NCBI GenBank assembly: GCA_016793095.1
Contig: JAEUJQ010000045.1
Location: 186,001-250,000, forward strand
Source: Myxococcaceae bacterium
GTDB taxonomy: Bacteria; Myxococcota; Myxococcia; Myxococcales; Myxococcaceae
DNA: 64,000 bases
Direction of reading: 5' to 3'
A model generated the notes under the pieces. It made no database searches and was not told where the DNA came from. It saw only the letters and a program-made list of their open reading frames with translations. Below, in pieces: positions 3,825 through 43,830 of the stretch. The translations under genes and the position numbers were made by a program. Position 1 is the stretch's first letter, and each line of letters begins with the position of its first letter.

Positions 3825-5021
3825 ATGACACCCGCCTTCACCGCCCACCTCCAGGCCCAGCTCGACGACATCAAGGCGCAGGGCCTCTGCAAGTCCGAAC
3901 GGGTGATCACCTCACCCCAGCGCGCGAACATCACCGTGCAGGGCGGCCCCGAGGTCTTGAACTTCTGCGCCAACAACTACCTCGGTCTCGCCGACTCGCC
4001 CGAGCTGATCGCCGCCGCGAAGGAGGGCCTCGATCGCTACGGCTTCGGCATGGCCTCGGTGCGCTTCATCTGCGGCACCCAGAGCGTCCACAAGGAGCTC
4101 GAGGCGAAGCTGACCGCCTTCCTCGGCACCGAAGACACCATCCTCTTCTCCTCCTGCTGGGACGCGAACGGCGGCGTGTTCGAGATCGTCCTCGGCGAGG
4201 AGGACGCGGTGATCTCCGACGCCTTGAACCACGCGTCGATCATCGACGGCATCCGCCTCTGCAAGGCGAAGCGCTACCGCTACGCGAACAACGATCTGAA
4301 CGAGCTGGAGGAGCGCCTCAAGGAAGCGAAGGCCGCCAACGCCCGCTTCACCCTCGTCGTCACCGACGGCGTCTTCTCGATGGACGGCGTGATCGCCAAC
4401 CTGAAGGGCCTCTGCGACCTCGCCGAGCGCTACGGCGCCGCGGTGATGGTGGACGACTCCCACGCGGTCGGCTTCACCGGCGACAAGGGCAAGGGCTCGC
4501 ACGAGCTGCGCGGCGTGATGGGCCGCGTCGACATCATCACCGGCACCCTCGGCAAGGCGCTGGGCGGCGCGTCGGGCGGCTACGTCTCGGCCCGCAAGGA
4601 GATCGTGCAGCTGCTCCGCCAGCGCGCCCGCCCCTACCTCTTCTCGAACACCCTCATGCCGGCGATCGCCCACGCGACGATCAAGTGCCTCGAGCTGCTC
4701 GAGCAGGGCGACGGCCGCCGCAAGCAGCTCAAGGAGAACGCCGCCCACTTCCGCGCCGAGATGACGAAGGCCGGCTTCACGCTCGCCGGCGAAGGCCACC
4801 CCATCATCCCCGTGATGATCGGCGACGCCGCCCTCGCCGCCCGCTTCGCCGACGAGATGCTCAAGGAAGGCATCTACGTCATCGGCTTCAGCTTCCCCGT
4901 CGTTCCCAAAGGCGCCGCCCGCATCCGCACGCAGATGTCGGCCGCCCACACCCGCGCGCAGCTCGATCGCGCCATCGCCGCGTTCATCAAGGTCGGAAAG
5001 GACCTCGGAGTGATCTCATGA
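3825..5021 (+). CDS. kbl: Glycine C-acetyltransferase (2-amino-3-ketobutyrate CoA ligase)
   Basis: PLP-dependent enzyme of the alpha-oxoamine synthase family, 398 residues, the same length class as E. coli Kbl. It cleaves 2-amino-3-oxobutyrate with CoA to glycine and acetyl-CoA, the second step of threonine degradation. The PLP lysine is K244 in TLGKALGG, and the cofactor-binding DDSHAVG lies at 210-216. The stop overlaps the ATG of tdh by 4 bp (ATGA), so the two pathway enzymes are coupled in reverse reaction order, as in E. coli. The promoter should lie in the 213-bp divergent gap shared with the ATPase gene; I see no clear consensus there. Confidence 0.97.
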
Positions 5022-6046
5022 AGGCCCTCGTCAAAGCGAAGAAGGAACCCGGGCTCTGGCTCGAAGAGCTGCCTGTGCCGAAGTGCGGCCCCAACGACGT
5101 GCTGATCAAGGTGCGCCAGACGGGCATCTGCGGCACCGACATTCACATTTACAACTGGGACGAGTGGAGCCAGCGCACGATCCCCGTCCCCATGGGCATC
5201 GGCCACGAGTTCATGGGCGAGGTCGCCGAGATCGGCAGCGAGGTGACGGGCTTCAAGGTGGGCGAGCGCGTCTCGGCCGAGGGGCACATCACCTGCGGGC
5301 ACTGCCGCAACTGCCGCGCCGGCAAGCGCCACCTCTGCCGCAACACCATCGGCCTCGGCGTCAACCGCCAGGGCTCGTTCGCCGAGTTCGTCACCATTCC
5401 GGCGTTCAACGTCTTCAAGCTGCCCAACGAGATCCCCGATCACATCGCGGCCTTCTTCGACCCGCTCGGCAACGCTGTGCACACCGCGCTCTCGTTCGAG
5501 CTCGTCGGAGAGGACGTGCTGATCACCGGCGCCGGCCCCATCGGCGTCATGGCCGTGCCCATCGCGAAGCACATCGGCGCGCGCCACGTGGTGATCACCG
5601 ACGTGAACGACTACCGCCTCGAGCTGGCGAAGAAGCTGGGCGCCACCCGCGCGGTGAACGTCGCGAAGGAGTCGCTCGACGACGTGATGAAGTCGCTGGG
5701 CATGACCGAGGGCTTCGACGTCGGCCTCGAGATGAGCGGCAACGGCGCCGCCTTCAAGCAGATGTTCAAGGCGATGAACCACGGCGGGCGCGTGGCGATC
5801 CTCGGCATCCCCGCGACCGAGATCGCCATCGACTGGAGCCAGGTCATCTTCAAGGGCCTGCATCTCAAGGGCATCTACGGCCGGGAGATGTTCGAGACCT
5901 GGTACAAGATGACCGCGATGATCCAGAGCGGGCTCGACATCTCGCAGGTCGTCACCCACCGCTTCCCGATCGCCGACTTCAAGCAGGCCTTCGAGGTGAT
6001 GCGCACCGGCCAGAGCGGCAAGGTCGTGCTGGACTGGACGAAGTGA
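5018..6046 (+). CDS. tdh: L-threonine 3-dehydrogenase
   Basis: Zinc-dependent medium-chain dehydrogenase that oxidises L-threonine to 2-amino-3-oxobutyrate with NAD+, feeding Kbl. At 342 residues it matches the family. Catalytic zinc ligands C38, H63 and E64 and the structural zinc cysteines C93, C96, C99 and C107 are all present. The Rossmann glycine motif GAGPIG lies near residue 170. The start at 5018 is set by the ATGA overlap with kbl and by the family N-terminus MKALVK. The deoxynucleoside kinase follows after one base. Confidence 0.97.
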
Positions 6047-6047
6047 G

Positions 6048-6791
6048 ATGAGCGCGAAGCGGAAGTTCCAGGCCGTGCCCGCGCCGTCAACCGTCGAGAC
6101 GTCGGAGATCGCCGCCGCCTCGGCCGCCGCCACGAAGAAGGCGCCGAAGCCGGCGAAGCGCACCGCGAAGAAGCTCTTCGTCGCCATGGCCGGCAACATC
6201 GGCGCTGGCAAGACGACCGCCGCGAAGATGGTGAGCCAGAAGTTCGGCTTCGAGCTCTTCGACGAGCCCGTCATCGACAACCGCTTCCTCAAGGACTACT
6301 ACGCAGACATGAAGCGCTGGAGCTTCACGCTCCAGCTCGAGTTCCTGATCCGCCGCGTCGAGCACCACGAGCTGATCCACCGCGTGCCGAAGAGCTGCAT
6401 CCAGGATCGCACGCTGTACGAGGACCCCGAGATCTTCGCGAAGTACCTGCACGGCCTCGGCTTCATGACCGACGCCGAGCTCGAGCTGTACTTCGAGTAC
6501 TTCCAGCGCACCTCGAAGACCATCGCCCACCCCGACAAGGTGATCTGCTTCGACGTGCCCAACGTGCAGGTGCTGCTCGATCGCATCAAGAAGCGCGGCC
6601 GCGAGGAGGAGAAGGGCATTCAGAGCCAGTTCCTGCGCGGCCTCTCGGGCTACTACGCGACGTTCCCCATGGTGCTGCAGGGCAAGTACGGCATCGACGT
6701 GCTGACGTTCGACGTGACGACCCTCGACATCCGCACCGGGAGGGGCCGCGAGCAGTTCCTCGACTCGGTGTCCGACTTCCTCTTGAAGTAG
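6048..6791 (+). CDS. Deoxynucleoside kinase (dAK/dGK/dCK family) with Lys/Ala-rich N-terminal tail
   Basis: Salvage kinase that would phosphorylate deoxynucleosides using NTP. The P-loop GNIGAGKTT is at 49-57, the family DRS-like motif is QDRT at 119-122, and an arginine-rich lid (KKRGREEEKG) lies near 185. Family members usually begin a few residues before the P-loop; here about 42 extra residues rich in Ala, Lys and Pro precede it. The ATG lies one base after the tdh stop, so translation coupling supports this start. The link to threonine catabolism is positional only. Substrate preference cannot be assigned. Confidence 0.88.
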   Translation: MSAKRKFQAVPAPSTVETSEIAAASAAATKKAPKPAKRTAKKLFVAMAGNIGAGKTTAAKMVSQKFGFELFDEPVIDNRFLKDYYADMKRWSFTLQLEFLIRRVEHHELIHRVPKSCIQDRTLYEDPEIFAKYLHGLGFMTDAELELYFEYFQRTSKTIAHPDKVICFDVPNVQVLLDRIKKRGREEEKGIQSQFLRGLSGYYATFPMVLQGKYGIDVLTFDVTTLDIRTGRGREQFLDSVSDFLLK

Positions 6792-6797
6792 CGCTGG

Positions 6798-7205
6798 CTA
6801 GGTTGCCTTCTTCAACGGCGCTGGACGCCTGGCATGGAAGACGGTCAACCGCTCGTCGAGCCACTCGAGGGCGCGGCCCTCATCCTTGAACGCCTCGTTG
6901 TTGTCGTTGCCCGACAGCCGCATCACCATGTTCGCGGTCATGCGCATGAGGGCGGAGTCGATCAGCAGGGCCACCGGCACCGGGTTCGCGGGATCCGGCC
7001 GCACCGAGCCCAACACCTTCTTCACGTCTGCGCCGACGCCCGTCACGTTGCCCAGCACCAGATGCCCATGCCACTCGTAGCGCCCCCCGGGGGTGATGCT
7101 CGAGTGATAGCGGCGCGCCTCCTCGACCGTCACCTCACCCTTGAAGACCGCGCGAAGAACGGCGTGGCCTGACTGTGTAAACGTCTCGCTCGTCTCGATG
7201 GGCAT
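6798..7205 (-). CDS. Hypothetical protein, possibly SpoIIAA/STAS-like
   Basis: A 135-residue soluble protein with no signal peptide. I chose the ATG at 7205 (MPIETSETF); an in-frame start further upstream would add a basic, low-complexity leader with no visible function. The middle contains HGHLVLGNVTG and a hydrophobic strand VALLIDSAL, and the C-terminus ends in F.DE..ALEWL, which recalls the last helix of SpoIIAA-like STAS proteins often found in myxobacteria. I do not recognise it firmly. It converges on the kinase gene with a 6-bp gap. Confidence 0.6.
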   Translation of the reverse strand: MPIETSETFTQSGHAVLRAVFKGEVTVEEARRYHSSITPGGRYEWHGHLVLGNVTGVGADVKKVLGSVRPDPANPVPVALLIDSALMRMTANMVMRLSGNDNNEAFKDEGRALEWLDERLTVFHARRPAPLKKAT

Positions 7206-37983: not shown

Positions 37984-38790
37984 TCACTGCTTCGGGATCT
38001 TCGCCTGAATCGCCTTGAGCGAGGCGACGCCCTGCTCCGTGCTCTGGTAGCCGTTCGCGGCGATCAGCGCGGTGATCTTCTCGATCCGCTCGGTGTTCGA
38101 CGGGTGCGTCGAGAGGAAGGTGAGGAACTGCGGCAGCTCGCCTTTGGCCTTCAGCTTCTCGAAGAAGGTCGCGAGCCCGCGCGGATCGTAGCCGGCCCCG
38201 TTCGCGTACTTCGCGCCGTACTGGTCGGCCTCGAGCTCCATGTCACGGCCGTAGGCCATGATGCTGCCCTTGCCGAGCAGCCCCGCCGCGAGCAGCGCCA
38301 CGTCGCTCGGATCCTTGCCCAGCGCCATCGCCGCCACCGTCTCGAGGCCCTTCGCCGCGACGAGCTGCCGCGCCGAGTGCCGCGCGACGACGTGCGCGAG
38401 CTCATGCCCCACCACGCCCACCACCTCGGCCTCGGTGTCGGCCGCGAGCAGCAGCCCGGTGTAGATGTAGATGCGCCCGCCGGGCGTCGCGAAGGCGTTG
38501 ACCGTCTTCGGATCGTCGATCACGAAGTACTGCCACTTCACGCCAGGGCGATCCTTGTCCGCCTGCGGCGTCAGCTTCTGCACCAGGCCGCTGACGTAGA
38601 AGCCCACGTCGGGCACGTCGAGGAACTTCGTGTTCTCCTTCTTCAGCTCCTCGTGCACCTGGAAGCCGAGATCCGTCTCCTGCTGATCGGTGATCAGCGT
38701 GGCGGCGACGATCTGCTCCGTCTGCGAGCGCTGCATCATCGAGCAGGCGGTGAAGGACAGCACAGCGGCGGCAAGGACGAGGTGGCGCAT
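37984..38790 (-). CDS. M48 family metalloprotease lipoprotein (BepA/LoiP-like)
   Basis: 268 residues. Signal with lipobox Cys16 (SFTAC). The zinc motif HELAH is at 129-133, with the third ligand in E185-L-E-A-D (ELEADQYG) and the typical NAFATPGG near 98. These periplasmic proteases act in outer-membrane protein quality control. ATG at 38790 gives the lipoprotein signal; upstream in-frame sequence is rejected. Divergent from the sigma/caspase operon with 188 bp between. Confidence 0.93.
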   Translation of the reverse strand: MRHLVLAAAVLSFTACSMMQRSQTEQIVAATLITDQQETDLGFQVHEELKKENTKFLDVPDVGFYVSGLVQKLTPQADKDRPGVKWQYFVIDDPKTVNAFATPGGRIYIYTGLLLAADTEAEVVGVVGHELAHVVARHSARQLVAAKGLETVAAMALGKDPSDVALLAAGLLGKGSIMAYGRDMELEADQYGAKYANGAGYDPRGLATFFEKLKAKGELPQFLTFLSTHPSNTERIEKITALIAANGYQSTEQGVASLKAIQAKIPKQ

Positions 38791-38978
38791 GGTGGTCGGT
38801 CTCCTGGAGGGATGGATCGCGCACCGAATAGTCGGTGGCGCCAGCGGGCGCACCCGCAAAAAGCCGACACAAGTCGGCGAAGTCACGAGGCTTTCCGGCG
38901 CTTTCCGTTTTCGGGGTCGGCTGTGTCCATTCCTGCGAACCCGGGCACTCCGGGCACACACAACCTGAGAGGACGATC

Positions 38979-39935
38979 ATGAAGCGAGTGATGGTGGCGG
39001 CAGTCGCGGCGGTGGCGATGGCGATGACGGGCTGTGGCATGGACAAGGGCGAGCCGTTCCGCCAGGGCTTCCCCCACAGCGACACCGTGAAGCTCAACCT
39101 GCCGGGGAACAAGGCGGCCCTGACCGGCGAGGGCCAGCGCCGCGACGGGCTCGAGGGGCAGACGTCGGACTTCTACAAGCTGACGCGCGGCGTGACGGCG
39201 ACCGTGAATGGCGCGGGCGGCGCGGTGCTCCTGCTGGTCGAGAAGATCACCGACTACCCGCCCACCAGCGTGAACCAGAACGTCGCCGTGTGGGGTCCGC
39301 ACACCGACGCGCTCTCGCCGAACACCTACAAGTTCACCGTGACGAAGGTGGCCGAGAACCAGTTCGACTACCTGCTCGAGGCGAAGGGGAAGACGGAGGC
39401 TGACTCGGCGTTCCGCGTCATCCTCTCGGGTTCGCACGTCTCGACGGGCAGGAACCTGGGCAGCGGCACCTTCCTCGTGGACTGGGATCGCGCGCAGACG
39501 CTCCCTGAGCACGACAAGAACGTGGGCACCGCGTCGTACACCTACTCGCGCCAGACGGCGGGCGCCGACGTCTCGGTCGATGCGCTGTTCCAGAAGGTGC
39601 GTGACGAAGAGACGAACCAGCTCGTGGACGTGAACTACAAGTACCGCGAGCAGCCCGGCAACGGCGGGGCGTTCGAGTTCCGCATGAACAAGAACTGGAT
39701 CCCTGGACCCGGCGTCGAGGTGCTCACCGTGAAGAGCCGCTGGCAGCAGGCTGGCGCCGGACGCAGCGACGCGCGCGCCACCGGCGGCGATCTGCCCGGG
39801 CCGGCCACCGCCTCGGAGTGCTGGGACTCGGGGTTCGCTTCGCGCTTCCTCAACGCCTCCTGGCTCACGCCCCAGACGGGGAACTACGGCGCCGAGAGCG
39901 TGTGCGCGTTCCCCACGGCCGAGTACGCGCCGTAA
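38979..39935 (+). CDS. Lipoprotein A of the sigma/caspase operon
   Basis: 318 residues with lipobox Cys19 (MAMTGC). The ATG has GAGAGGA upstream. The mature protein is beta-rich with no recognised domain. Its C-terminal region matches lipoprotein B at 42892-43830: both have SRW...GAG..., then ECWD..F...F....W and a final S.C, giving one probable disulphide. The stop is 10 bp before the sigma factor gene, so it is probably the first gene of a five-gene operon. Role unknown; it may sit on the outer membrane as sensor, substrate or partner of the caspase-barrel protein. Confidence 0.78.
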   Translation: MKRVMVAAVAAVAMAMTGCGMDKGEPFRQGFPHSDTVKLNLPGNKAALTGEGQRRDGLEGQTSDFYKLTRGVTATVNGAGGAVLLLVEKITDYPPTSVNQNVAVWGPHTDALSPNTYKFTVTKVAENQFDYLLEAKGKTEADSAFRVILSGSHVSTGRNLGSGTFLVDWDRAQTLPEHDKNVGTASYTYSRQTAGADVSVDALFQKVRDEETNQLVDVNYKYREQPGNGGAFEFRMNKNWIPGPGVEVLTVKSRWQQAGAGRSDARATGGDLPGPATASECWDSGFASRFLNASWLTPQTGNYGAESVCAFPTAEYAP

Positions 39936-39944
39936 CATCGGCCC

Positions 39945-40490
39945 ATGGTCCGCCCGGCCCTCGAGGTCATCGACGGTGGCAGGAGCGCCGGGCGGGCGTG
40001 GCTCAAGCAGCTGTACTCGACGTACGGCGGCGCCGTGTTCCAGCGGTGCCGCTTCCTGCTCAAGGACCCGACGGCAGCCGAGGACGCCATGCAGGACGTG
40101 TTCGCCAGGGCGATGTTGAACGAGGGCAGCTTCCGCGGCGAGGCGTCGCCGCTGACGTGGTTGACGAAGATCGCCACCAATCACTGCCTCAACCTGCTGC
40201 GCGAGAAGCGCGCGGCGTGGCACGACCAGTACGAGTCGATGGAGCGGGTGAAGGGTGAGGCCCACGGCGGTCCTGGCAGCCTCGAGGCCCGTGATCTCGT
40301 GCGCCGAACCCTCAGCCGCTTCGACCTCGAGACCCAGTCGGCCGTCATTCACTACTGGGTGGACGATCTGACGCTGGACGAGGTGGCTGCCCTGCTGGGC
40401 CGCTCGGTGCCGACGATTCGCAAGCGCCTGAACACCTTCGCCGAGGCGACTGGCCAGGCGATGCGCGACGGCGATGGAGGCCTGCCGTGA
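39945..40490 (+). CDS. ECF-type RNA polymerase sigma factor
   Basis: 181 residues. Region 2 spans about 20-90 (LYSTYGGAVFQRC, AEDAMQDVFARAM, SPLTWLTKIATN-HCLN). Region 4 spans about 120-170 (LETQSAVIHYW, TLDEVAALLGRSVPTIRKRL) with a helix-turn-helix. No region 1 or 3 is seen, as expected for ECF sigma factors. The stop overlaps the GTG of a zinc-motif anti-sigma gene by 4 bp, giving the usual sigma/anti-sigma couple. It probably activates its own operon. Confidence 0.93.
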   Translation: MVRPALEVIDGGRSAGRAWLKQLYSTYGGAVFQRCRFLLKDPTAAEDAMQDVFARAMLNEGSFRGEASPLTWLTKIATNHCLNLLREKRAAWHDQYESMERVKGEAHGGPGSLEARDLVRRTLSRFDLETQSAVIHYWVDDLTLDEVAALLGRSVPTIRKRLNTFAEATGQAMRDGDGGLP

Positions 40491-41254
40491 GCGCGACCGC
40501 GTTGAAACACCCCGGCTCGTTGACGCTGCGCCGCCTGCACGCGGGTGAGGCGGTCGGTGACGAGGTGACGCTCCACGTCGCGGCCTGCGAGGCGTGCAGC
40601 GCGACCCTGGCGTCCTTTTCGTCGGAGCAGCAGGCCTTCGAGCAGCAGATCTCGTTCGATCGGTTCGCGGCAGGCGTGGAGCGGGCAGCACGCGAGGCGT
40701 CGAGGCCTCCTCCGCAGCGACGCTGGCTGCAGCCGATGCTCGCGCTCGCCGCCGGGCTCGTGGTGATCGCAGGCGCGCAGCTCGTGCTCTCTCGAGTCGA
40801 GCCCGGGTCGGGCAACCGGCTCAAGGGCGGTGCTGCGGTGCAGGTGGTGGTGGCCGGGCGCGGACCACAGCGGGACGCTTCGGAGAAGCCGCACGTCGCC
40901 GAGGCGCTGGCGGCCGGAGAGCGGGTTCGCATCGGCCTCACGCCCGACCCCTGGAAGTACGCCATCGTCGTCAGCATCGACGACGCGGGCGAGATCACCC
41001 CCATCTACGTGGACAACGGCCACAGCCTCGCGGTCGGCGCCTCGAAGGACACCGTCTGGCTGCCCGAGAGCCTCGAGTTCACCGGCGCCGGCCTCGAGCA
41101 CGTGGTGATCGTGCTGTCGTCTTCGCCGCTCAGCCTCGACCAGCTCGCCAGCGCGCTGCGGCTGGCCTTCGACGACGCCCGCGGCGATCTGCTGAAGCTT
41201 GGAAGTCTTCCGTTGCCAGGCCAGCAGTTTCACCGCACCTTCCTCAAGCCGTGA
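40487..41254 (+). CDS. Membrane anti-sigma factor with ZAS motif and periplasmic DUF4384-like domain
   Basis: 255 residues from a GTG in a GTGA overlap with the sigma gene. The cytoplasmic part contains H-x3-C-x2-C (HVAACEAC, about 30-37), the zinc-binding anti-sigma signature. One membrane helix lies at about 83-101 (LALAAGLVVIAGAQLVL). The outer part, from about 120, has GERVRIGL, YAIVVSIDDAGEITPIY and a strand-rich end that resembles DUF4384. It would hold the sigma factor inactive and respond to a periplasmic signal. The next gene, a caspase, also starts in a GTGA overlap. Confidence 0.85.
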   Translation: MSATALKHPGSLTLRRLHAGEAVGDEVTLHVAACEACSATLASFSSEQQAFEQQISFDRFAAGVERAAREASRPPPQRRWLQPMLALAAGLVVIAGAQLVLSRVEPGSGNRLKGGAAVQVVVAGRGPQRDASEKPHVAEALAAGERVRIGLTPDPWKYAIVVSIDDAGEITPIYVDNGHSLAVGASKDTVWLPESLEFTGAGLEHVVIVLSSSPLSLDQLASALRLAFDDARGDLLKLGSLPLPGQQFHRTFLKP

Positions 41255-42888
41255 GCCCCGCCCTGCCAGCGTCGTGGAGCCTCCGCCTCGCGCTGGCGTG
41301 GCTCGCGACGTTCGCGCTTCAGGCACAGACGGCGCCCGCGCCTTCGGGCCCCCAGCGCCGCTTCGCGCTGATCATCGGCAACGATCAGGGCGGCGAAGGC
41401 ACCCGCCCGCTCCTGTACGCCGCCGACGACGCGCGGCGGATGCACGAGGTGCTGCTCCGCCTCGGGGGCACCACGCCAGACGACGCGATGCTGCTGATCA
41501 ACGACTCGTCCGACGACGTGCTGACCGCGCTCGCCGAGGTCGAGCGACGGATCCGCGATGCACGTCAGCGTGGGGAGCGCACCACGCTCTTCTTCTACTA
41601 CTCGGGCCACGCGAAGGACGGCGCGCTGCGGCTGGGCTCGACGAAGCTGCCGATGGAGTCCGTGAAGGCGAGGCTTGCCCAGGGGCCCGCCGACATGCGC
41701 GTCGCGGTGTTCGACGCCTGCCGCTCTGGCGCGCTGACGCGCACCAAGGGCGTACGAAAGGCGCCGGCCTTCGAGGTGGAGACGGACGCGACGCGGGCCG
41801 CGAAGGGCCTCGTGATCCTCACGTCGAGCGCGTCGGACGAAGACTCGCAGGAGTCGGACGCGATCGGCGCGAGCTACTTCTCGTACCACCTCGTCAGCGG
41901 CCTCCTCGGGAGCGCAGATCAGAGCGGCGACGGGCGCGTCAGCCTGGCCGAGGCCTACGCCTATGCGTACGAGCGCACCGTCGCGGCCACCGCCGACAGC
42001 GCCGCCGGGCCGCAGCACCCGACGTTCAGCTTCGATCTCGCGGGCAACGGCGATCTCGTGCTGACCGACGTGGTGCAGCGCCGGGAGGGCCTGCGGATCC
42101 CCGTCGAGGCGCCCGCAGGCACGTACTTCCTCATCGATCGACGCGGCGTCGTCGTGGCGGAGATCACCAAGAGCGAGGCTGAGCGCACGATCGCGCTCGC
42201 GCCGGGCACGTACACCGTCAAGCGTCGGCTCCCCGATCGCCTCCGCGTCGGCGAGGTGAAGATCGTCGACGGGCAGCTCTCGACGCTCGACGAGGCGCAG
42301 CTGAAGAACGCCAGGTTCTCGGACGACCCCGTGAAGGGCACGGGGTTGAGCACCGTGTACGCGCGTCACTGGAGCATCTCGGCCACCGGCCAGTACCAGG
42401 CGATCTTCGACGCCCCGACGACGCGGGGAGGCATCTTCCCGTCCGCGCCGCTCGTCGGCGGCGAGGCGACGGTGCACAACTTCTTCGGCCGCGGCTTCGC
42501 CTGGAGCTTCGACGGCCAGTACGGCTGGTCCACCGGCGCCGTCGCGAGCGCGCGCCTCGGCACGCCCGCCACCTACCGCTACTCGTTGATCACCGTCGGC
42601 ACTTCGCTCCTCTACGAGTGGAACCAGGAGGGCAGCTGGGTGCCGTTCGCCGGCGCGCGCCTCAACCTGAGCCTGATGAGCCGCGAGTTCGACGACGCGC
42701 TCTTCCCACGGCAGGGCTTCACCACCATGAGCCCCGGCGTCGTGCTGGGGCTCAAGTACCGCATCGGGCGGAGCTTCGGCCTCGTCGCGCGCGGCCGCGT
42801 TCACTACCTCCTCTACAACGTGGACGAGACGAAGAACCTCGGGTTCGCCGAGGTCGGACTGCTCGTGAGCTACGAGTTCAGGGACTGA
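41251..42888 (+). CDS. Secreted caspase-like protease (C14) fused to a C-terminal outer-membrane beta-barrel
   Basis: 545 residues from GTG at 41251. A signal peptide (about 10-25) is followed by a C14 caspase fold (36-270) with catalytic H120 (YYSGH) and C157 (FDACRSG). An EF-hand-like loop D223-Q-S-G-D-G-R-V-S-L-A-E234 lies in its end region, a motif often seen in bacterial caspases. Residues 280-345 form a small beta domain with EAPAGTYFL and APGTYTV, like a PEGA/carboxypeptidase-regulatory unit. Residues 366-545 alternate as amphipathic strands of an OmpA-like barrel ending YEFRD. So the protease would face the periplasm or surface. The combination with a sigma/anti-sigma pair is the most notable feature of the window. 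Confidence 0.87.
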   Translation: MSPALPASWSLRLALAWLATFALQAQTAPAPSGPQRRFALIIGNDQGGEGTRPLLYAADDARRMHEVLLRLGGTTPDDAMLLINDSSDDVLTALAEVERRIRDARQRGERTTLFFYYSGHAKDGALRLGSTKLPMESVKARLAQGPADMRVAVFDACRSGALTRTKGVRKAPAFEVETDATRAAKGLVILTSSASDEDSQESDAIGASYFSYHLVSGLLGSADQSGDGRVSLAEAYAYAYERTVAATADSAAGPQHPTFSFDLAGNGDLVLTDVVQRREGLRIPVEAPAGTYFLIDRRGVVVAEITKSEAERTIALAPGTYTVKRRLPDRLRVGEVKIVDGQLSTLDEAQLKNARFSDDPVKGTGLSTVYARHWSISATGQYQAIFDAPTTRGGIFPSAPLVGGEATVHNFFGRGFAWSFDGQYGWSTGAVASARLGTPATYRYSLITVGTSLLYEWNQEGSWVPFAGARLNLSLMSREFDDALFPRQGFTTMSPGVVLGLKYRIGRSFGLVARGRVHYLLYNVDETKNLGFAEVGLLVSYEFRD

Positions 42889-42891
42889 GCC

Positions 42892-43830
42892 ATGAGATCC
42901 TCCACCCTCCTCAGCGTGCTCCTCTTCACCGCCTGCGGCGGCACCTGGTCGAACCGCGATCTCGAGTTCGCCGCGGCCCTGCCCTCGCGCGCCGAGCTGT
43001 CGTCGAAGCTGCCGACGTCGGCGAGCAGCGCGCAGCCGCTCACCCGCCGAGACGGCCTCAACGCGGGCGACCCGTCACAGGCGTACGCCGACACGAAGAA
43101 GGCCGTCACGGACTTCAACGGGCTGCTCGACTTCTTCCTCGGCGTCGTCGACTCGGTGCGGTCGGTCTCGCCGACCAGCCGCTCGGGAGACTCGCGCACG
43201 TGGGGTCCGTTCGCGGCGAAAGACGCTCCCGGCTTCCAGTTCCAGGTGACGATCGCGCTCGTGTCGAGCGACCCGCAGGAGACGTTCGGCTGGAAGCTGC
43301 AGGCGCGCAAGCTGGGGGAGCAGGCGTGGCTCGACGTCGTGCGCGGCACCTTCCAGGCCTCGGCGGAGACGGTGCGCAAGGGCATGGGGCAGATCGAGGT
43401 GCCGGTGAAGGAGTTCCGCGATCAGCTCAAGATCGATCCCGCCTTCGCGCAGCTCGACTCGATCGTGATCGGCTACGTCACCAACGCGAACCCGAAGCTG
43501 TCCACGATGACGTTCACCTTCGCGGCGGGCAACCCGGGCGGCTTCTCGTCAGCGGGCTACGCGTCGCGACAGGCGGACGACGGCTCGGGCGCGATGGGGT
43601 TCTCGCTCAAGACCCTCGACCCGAACACCTCGCGGCTCGACATCGTCAGCAGGTGGCGCACGACCGGCGCGGGCGTCGCGATCGCGACCGTCGCCGAGGG
43701 CAACTACCGCGGGGCGACCCGCATCGAGTGCTGGGACACCTCGTTCAAGGTCGTCTTCTTCAAGGAGACCTGGCCCGGCGGTCAGGAGTCCGGCGTCCAG
43801 TCGGCGTGCGTGTCGATCGAGGGGCTCTGA
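42892..43830 (+). CDS. Lipoprotein B of the sigma/caspase operon
   Basis: 312 residues with lipobox Cys15 (LLFTACGG). It starts 3 bp after the caspase stop. The mature protein shares the ECWD...S.C ending and the SRW...GAG motif with lipoprotein A, and both have a WGP segment near residue 100, so the two are paralogues. No known domain is recognised. It converges on the PAP2 gene with one base between stops. Confidence 0.78.
   Translation: MRSSTLLSVLLFTACGGTWSNRDLEFAAALPSRAELSSKLPTSASSAQPLTRRDGLNAGDPSQAYADTKKAVTDFNGLLDFFLGVVDSVRSVSPTSRSGDSRTWGPFAAKDAPGFQFQVTIALVSSDPQETFGWKLQARKLGEQAWLDVVRGTFQASAETVRKGMGQIEVPVKEFRDQLKIDPAFAQLDSIVIGYVTNANPKLSTMTFTFAAGNPGGFSSAGYASRQADDGSGAMGFSLKTLDPNTSRLDIVSRWRTTGAGVAIATVAEGNYRGATRIECWDTSFKVVFFKETWPGGQESGVQSACVSIEGL

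Follow-up and report, generated by a model that had tools for sequence, protein, structure and literature searches.

We analyzed a 64,000-nucleotide stretch of DNA (hereafter the window), positions 186,001 to 250,000 of contig JAEUJQ010000045.1, from an 8.8 Mb Myxococcaceae assembly (GCA_016793095.1), in which five open reading frames (ORFs) on the forward strand at 38979-43830 form a putative operon. In order, they encode a lipoprotein (LipA), an extracytoplasmic function (ECF) sigma factor, a membrane anti-sigma factor, a protein that joins a caspase domain to a predicted C-terminal β-barrel (the caspase-barrel protein) and a second lipoprotein (LipB), as listed in Table 1. All five were found where a first-pass annotation of the same DNA had placed its five same-strand genes. 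The gaps between them are 9, -4, -4 and 3 nt; the last three agree with that annotation, which had given the first as 10.

Table 1. Predicted features of the operon, in window coordinates.
Feature	Position	Strand	Basis or remark
Predicted ECF-type promoter TTTCCGTTTTCGGGGTCGGCTGTGTC, core TTTC-N18-TGTC	38902..38927	+	51 nt before LipA start
LipA, lipoprotein, 318 aa, apparently accessory LipB paralogue	38979..39935	+	ORF and lipobox MTGC
ECF sigma factor, 181 aa	39945..40490	+	Pfam, NCBIfam
Membrane anti-sigma, 255 aa, GTG start	40487..41254	+	Sequence, hydropathy
Anti-sigma juxtamembrane R-L-K-G motif, aa 111-114	40817..40828	+	78-sequence alignment
Caspase-barrel, 545 aa, GTG start, GTGA overlap, N-terminal hydrophobic signal segment	41251..42888	+	Pfam Peptidase_C14, AlphaFold
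Caspase domain, aa 32-276, dyad H120/C157, S1-pocket D60/S118/D155	41344..42078	+	VIA-align, alignment
Predicted C-terminal eight-stranded outer-membrane barrel, aa 373-543	42367..42879	+	AlphaFold, Foldseek
LipB, lipoprotein, 312 aa, predicted obligate caspase-barrel partner	42892..43830	+	AlphaFold, co-occurrence

The caspase-barrel protein matches Pfam Peptidase_C14 with an E-value of 8.8e-12. An AlphaFold model built on 56 aligned relatives, with a mean predicted local distance difference test score (pLDDT) of 88.5, contains a caspase domain and a small β domain and, toward the C-terminus, exactly eight long strands (residues 373-385, 399-409, 416-431, 440-456, 463-480, 488-504, 509-523 and 527-543). 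When searched with Foldseek, the C-terminal part matched the transmembrane (TM) domain of OmpA with an E-value of 1.1e-9, and the TM-scores to OmpA and NspA, normalised by target length, were 0.73-0.77. The barrel that the first-pass annotation had expected at the C-terminus is thus what the model predicts. A hydrophobic segment is found at the N-terminus of 71 of 80 caspase-barrel relatives, and 69 of the 74 full-length ones carry an aromatic residue within their last four positions. Export of the caspase, and its anchoring in the outer membrane by the modelled barrel, are supported. Since a barrel with an even number of strands, here eight, has both of its ends in the periplasm, the caspase domain would face that compartment. 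A signal peptide combined with a C-terminal barrel, in a predatory lineage, could also be taken to mean that the caspase domain is displayed on the surface or released, in the manner of an autotransporter, and acts on an external protein or on prey; some of the additional promoter sites described below, which precede secreted proteins such as pectinacetylesterases, would fit this. Autotransporter barrels have 12 strands, whereas eight strands in the shape of OmpA and NspA offer no pore for a passenger, and we consider a displayed or released caspase improbable.

The caspase domain itself closely resembles metacaspases. Residues 36-277 align by VIA-align with Arabidopsis metacaspase-4 over 209 residues (Z 21.3), and sequence searches of the PDB with the caspase retrieved metacaspases only. 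The His/Cys dyad lies at H120 and C157, where it had first been annotated, within SGH and DxC motifs; both residues are invariant in 56 relatives, as are D60, S118 and D155, which align with the acidic S1 residues of metacaspases (Asp, Ser, Asp). Metacaspases cut after Arg or Lys, and because the dyad is intact and the acidic S1 pocket is as in those enzymes, the same specificity is predicted here. The protein scored 64.5 bits against the NCBIfam EACC1-caspase model NF047832, under its cut-off of 140. In PADLOC the generic caspase model alone was matched (E = 1e-6), with no further component of a defence system, and assignment to a known anti-phage defence system was rejected on that ground.

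The sigma factor matches Pfam Sigma70_r2 (4.5e-14) and, above its cut-off, NCBIfam sigma70-ECF (6.8e-19). Its size fits the ECF range of about 180-200 aa and it has regions 2 and 4 only, the region 4 match lying below the Pfam cut-off. The product of the next gene had been annotated as a zinc-binding anti-sigma (ZAS), and the window protein does contain the N-terminal HxxxCxxC motif (H30, C34 and C37) and one TM helix at about residues 84-102; in the distant freshwater relatives most anti-sigmas have no zinc motif, though the TM segment is retained. A periplasmic DUF4384-like domain occupies about residues 141-214. The window protein matches DUF4384 (PF14326) weakly (E 0.0061, 17.1 bits against a cut-off of 27), whereas orthologues in four other genera are above the cut-off.

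A conserved promoter ties the sigma factor to these genes. Of 50 upstream regions, 37 contained the sequence TTTCnGTT-N13-GTGTC, which did not occur in any Markov shuffle. Its shorter form, TTTC-N18-KGTC, precedes 43 of 50 LipA-led operons (about 0.2 expected) and 15 of 20 distant operons led by the sigma gene (about 0.1 expected); only the N18 spacing is enriched, spacings of 14-17 and 19-23 being at or near background. A strict motif gave 90 matches in 92 genomes, against 3 for a reversed control, with 64 at the operon and 26 elsewhere by our own tally. The long form has only one or a few copies per genome, for the most part at the operon, and in the genome of the window TTTCnGTTT-N12-GTGTC occurs at the operon and at one other site. 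Because the promoter is conserved and its long form is so rare and so concentrated at the operon, the sigma factor very likely autoregulates a small regulon. From this ECF-type promoter, the proposal of the first-pass annotation that the operon is under its own sigma factor is very likely correct, and so is transcription by it of a small, lineage-variable set of envelope genes. Several sites away from the operon precede predicted lipoproteins or secreted proteins by 1-45 nt. A pectinacetylesterase-family protein follows the motif in four genomes, including that of the window, and a secreted CxxCH (haem c-like) protein with a weak PSCyt3 match does so in four genomes from three genera; some of these extra sites could belong to a related sigma factor that uses a similar promoter. 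The only other perfect site in the genome of the window (G000:C55:69270-69295) is 13 nt before a predicted pectinacetylesterase-family lipoprotein. Allowing one mismatch in that genome added one weak site and also one in the control, and this search was not used.

Relatives of the caspase-barrel were detected by full-length search in 82 of 96 family genomes. Four of these are partial or interrupted; in the remaining 78, the genome of the window excepted, the best match is 52-84% identical. About 45 loci from the family search were retrieved and their neighbours mapped, and a contig scan with named records gave 80 loci, among them Corallococcus, Myxococcus, Pyxidicoccus, Archangium, Hyalangium, Citreicoccus and Anaeromyxobacter. 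Co-location in related genomes, by which the first-pass annotation had proposed to judge the operon, holds widely: the order LipA, sigma, anti-sigma, caspase-barrel, LipB recurs in nearly all Myxococcaceae genera, usually with a 4-nt overlap between sigma and anti-sigma and frequently with another between anti-sigma and caspase. Flanking genes are shared by close relatives only, and the order is kept beyond them; its retention where the proteins are 40-55% identical and the flanking genes differ is far beyond chance. A four-gene form that begins with the sigma gene and has no LipA is found in Anaeromyxobacter and in about 20 distant freshwater metagenome-assembled genomes (MAGs), the latter at 32-38% identity and in the same order. 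Within the family the operon is near-core and has been kept by vertical descent; its carriers as a group are soil and freshwater bacteria related to the social myxobacteria.

Losses follow a pattern as well. Of 92 genomes, counting contig-edge fragments as present, 78 have both the caspase-barrel and LipB and 14 have neither, with no discordant case, whereas LipA is absent from one genus and a few other genomes. In one MAG (G018), LipA, sigma and anti-sigma have been lost and the caspase, with its dyad intact, and LipB are kept; no sigma orthologue is left there (best match 35% identity) and the genes adjoining the pair differ. In four genomes of the genus Myxococcus (L253, L254, L255 and L256) LipA is reduced to 62 residues, only the C-terminal part of sigma remains and the caspase and LipB are nearly gone, but an intact anti-sigma ORF and the promoter persist. 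Gene order, the -4 overlaps and this co-loss support the view that the genes form one functional unit.

Some further observations were made on these loci. In a sister genome of the genus Myxococcus the caspase gene is split by an insertion (L089, about 4685-7090) whose 508 aa ORF resembles, by eye, an IS66-type transposase. Two Archangium-group genomes (L087 and L100) have second caspase-barrel copies, accompanied by soluble-looking anti-sigmas of 79-99 aa and by no lipoproteins. Some record titles look wrong (L138, L168, L173 and L177): one labelled 'Comamonas sp. KCTC 72670' is a Myxococcaceae contig, and MAG contigs titled 'Klebsiella pneumoniae' and 'Bifidobacterium breve' bear the freshwater form of the operon. 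In the window, a divergent M48 peptidase gene (37984-38784, Pfam 9.5e-35) lies upstream of the operon and a convergent PAP2 gene downstream; the M48 gene and the operon share their upstream region in close relatives and in G018, not across the family.

The two lipoproteins are paralogues, as had been annotated: LipA and LipB are 22-29% identical by tblastn across relatives, and 66 sequences of the two share an invariant lipobox Cys, P31, WG(P), G152, G166 and two C-terminal Cys. None of these 66 members matched any family in Pfam-A. The AlphaFold model of LipB (pLDDT 92.3) consists of a helix and a long antiparallel sheet of about 14 strands. Foldseek returned nothing for this model at E ≤ 0.001, and a sequence search of the PDB gave no convincing match; OspA, the best VIA match (Z 8.9 over 159 residues at 5.8 Å), was set aside as a fold relative since these values are near a level that the tool calls common. 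Although LipA orthologues stand first in the operon in most Myxococcaceae, the symmetry between first and last genes to which the first-pass annotation drew attention is not essential. LipB does appear obligate, but LipA is dispensable: as far as their distribution tells, LipA is a lineage-restricted and sometimes lost duplicate, and LipB the obligate partner of the caspase.

We propose, with a probability of about 0.6, that the operon acts as a self-amplifying ECF module of envelope response; its output would be a periplasm-facing, outer-membrane-tethered caspase working with LipB. The membrane anti-sigma would retain sigma until a signal is sensed on the periplasmic side. Once freed, sigma would act on its own operon through the TTTC-N18-KGTC promoter, a step strongly supported by the sequence, and in some genera on a few further secreted proteins. 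The operon would then yield LipA, LipB and an exported caspase inserted through its predicted eight-stranded barrel, with the N-terminal domain probably toward the periplasm and cutting, like a metacaspase, after Arg or Lys. LipB would most likely serve the caspase as a dedicated partner, whether as its adaptor or as its substrate, and LipA would be a variant that arose by duplication. Caspase and LipB would form the effector pair, sigma and anti-sigma the switch. Three things favour an effector role: caspase and LipB persist in one lineage that has lost the sigma pair; the anti-sigmas of the second copies offer no periplasmic domain for cleavage; and the presence of LipB matches that of the caspase-barrel without exception (78/14/0). 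The joint decay of LipA, sigma, caspase and LipB in a Myxococcus subclade supports it too. Four points weigh on the other side. The role of LipB is read from co-occurrence only; the survival of caspase and LipB without the sigma pair is seen in a single MAG; paralogous ECF sigmas might use the same promoter motif; and, since paralogous sigma/anti-sigma/caspase triplets that have no recognised LipB-like gene are common, the caspase may be linked more generally to the anti-sigma than to LipB.

These triplets are found in the genome of the window itself, which has seven C14 genes above the Pfam cut-off. Apart from that of the operon, three of its caspase genes follow sigma and anti-sigma genes, and a further two have a sigma gene close by. 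Among the 30 best DUF4384 loci of 59 family genomes, 25 (some of them orthologues of the window operon) adjoin a caspase gene, in nearly every case along with a sigma gene. Single polypeptides also combine DUF4384 with a caspase motif (L300) or with a papain-like protease (L275). Taken with the caspase neighbours, these fusions show that DUF4384 anti-sigmas have a general link to cysteine proteases, and suggest that DUF4384 is a cysteine-protease-associated domain. In three loci (L274, L280 and L283) the sigma and DUF4384 anti-sigma genes are followed instead by a non-caspase secreted protein ending in ...IDFYxVRFFNGIWSERMQPGLNDLD..., a variant of the module with another effector.

A constant core of sigma, DUF4384 anti-sigma and caspase, together with the fusions, is also what would be expected if the caspase were the site-1 protease of its own anti-sigma, cutting it on the outer side of the inner membrane and close to it, after Lys113 or Arg111. 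Sensing by the barrel, LipA and LipB would activate the periplasmic caspase, and a site-2 protease would then release sigma, much as in DegS-RseA, or as in the cell-surface signalling of FecA/FecR if a protease replaced the signalling domain. The topology of the anti-sigma fits such a cleavage, and next to its membrane segment the aligned anti-sigmas carry an R-x-K-G motif (K113 in 78 of 78, G114 in 77 of 78 and R111 in 71 of 78) that would suit an S1 pocket for basic residues. The K-G pair is, though, retained in the three anti-sigmas of L274, L280 and L283, beside an unrelated secreted protein and with no caspase neighbour, and the motif was dropped as proof of a cleavage site. Being present in caspase-free modules, it does not decide the question, and it may simply be structural. 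The second copies in the two Archangium-group genomes combine an intact caspase-barrel with an anti-sigma that has neither TM nor periplasmic domain; caspase and LipB survive without the sigma pair in G018; the anti-sigma stays intact in genomes devoid of the caspase; and a caspase tethered in the outer membrane would need to bridge the distance to the inner one. We regard a site-1 role as possible but rather unlikely. Its fullest form, in which the lipoproteins and barrel sense the envelope, the caspase cuts the anti-sigma stem at R-x-K-G, sigma amplifies the response and the triplet has been duplicated several times per myxobacterial genome for different signals, seems to us slightly more doubtful still.

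The first-pass annotation had also raised a self-recognition circuit. Caspases are present in bacterial conflict systems (PMC7159879, PMC8195603). Given this homology and the social life of myxobacteria, the caspase and the two lipoproteins might discriminate kin or kill the cell. The lipoproteins are not hypervariable: within Corallococcus their mean identity is 80-82%, against 84% for the anti-sigma. No toxin or immunity partner was found, the PADLOC result was limited to the generic caspase model, and near-core, vertical inheritance over the family is unlike that of mobile conflict systems. A periplasmic site is, moreover, ill-suited to killing in the cytoplasm. Recognition or programmed death thus appears very improbable.

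The envelope-response module that we favour can be compared with several known systems. With metacaspases and bacterial orthocaspases (C14) the caspase shares its fold, His/Cys dyad and acidic S1 residues, but it is predicted to be exported, is fused to a barrel and lies in an ECF sigma/anti-sigma operon. Sigma-70 regions 2 and 4, an HxxxCxxC anti-sigma with one TM segment and a periplasmic domain, and autoregulation of the operon, very likely here, are common to RpoE-RseA (with DegS); here the periplasmic domain is DUF4384-like, the co-encoded protease is a caspase instead of DegS/PDZ, and the -35 element is of TTTC type, not GGAAC. As in FecI-FecR-FecA (PMC11637429, PMC7186176), sigma, anti-sigma and a barrel with an N-terminal periplasmic domain are encoded together, but the barrel is eight-stranded and OmpA-like, not a TonB-dependent receptor of 22 strands with a plug, and its N-terminal domain is an intact protease. 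OmpA and NspA share the eight strands at 11-19% identity, the window protein having a caspase in place of the peptidoglycan-binding domain. A caspase near an ECF sigma gene has been described for EACC2 systems (PMC8195603), and ECF54 is reported to have proteolytic enzymes in its vicinity, CHAT proteases among them (PMC8999054). The EACC1- and EACC2-caspase systems resemble the operon in this proximity, but they have EACC domains and TPR/TRADD-N partners, whereas the operon has predicted secretion, a barrel, an anti-sigma and lipoproteins; neither EACC2 caspases nor ECF54-linked proteases are exported, barrel-anchored or accompanied by an anti-sigma and lipoproteins.

Every single part of the operon is therefore of a known kind. 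We could not find a description of the linked module, or of the caspase-barrel architecture, in the open-access literature, which was the scope of our search. The module may have escaped notice because it has been lost in part of the genus Myxococcus. What is known of bacterial caspases concerns mainly cytoplasmic orthocaspases and effectors of conflict systems, whose roles are unclear. The operon would tie them to bacterial envelope signalling, and it offers tractable pieces: one operon, one promoter, two catalytic residues and one partner lipoprotein. It also reveals a lipoprotein family outside Pfam and a wider sigma/anti-sigma/caspase theme in Myxococcota. If our proposal is true, bacterial caspases would gain an ordinary physiological job, in envelope signalling or in proteolysis at the outer membrane.

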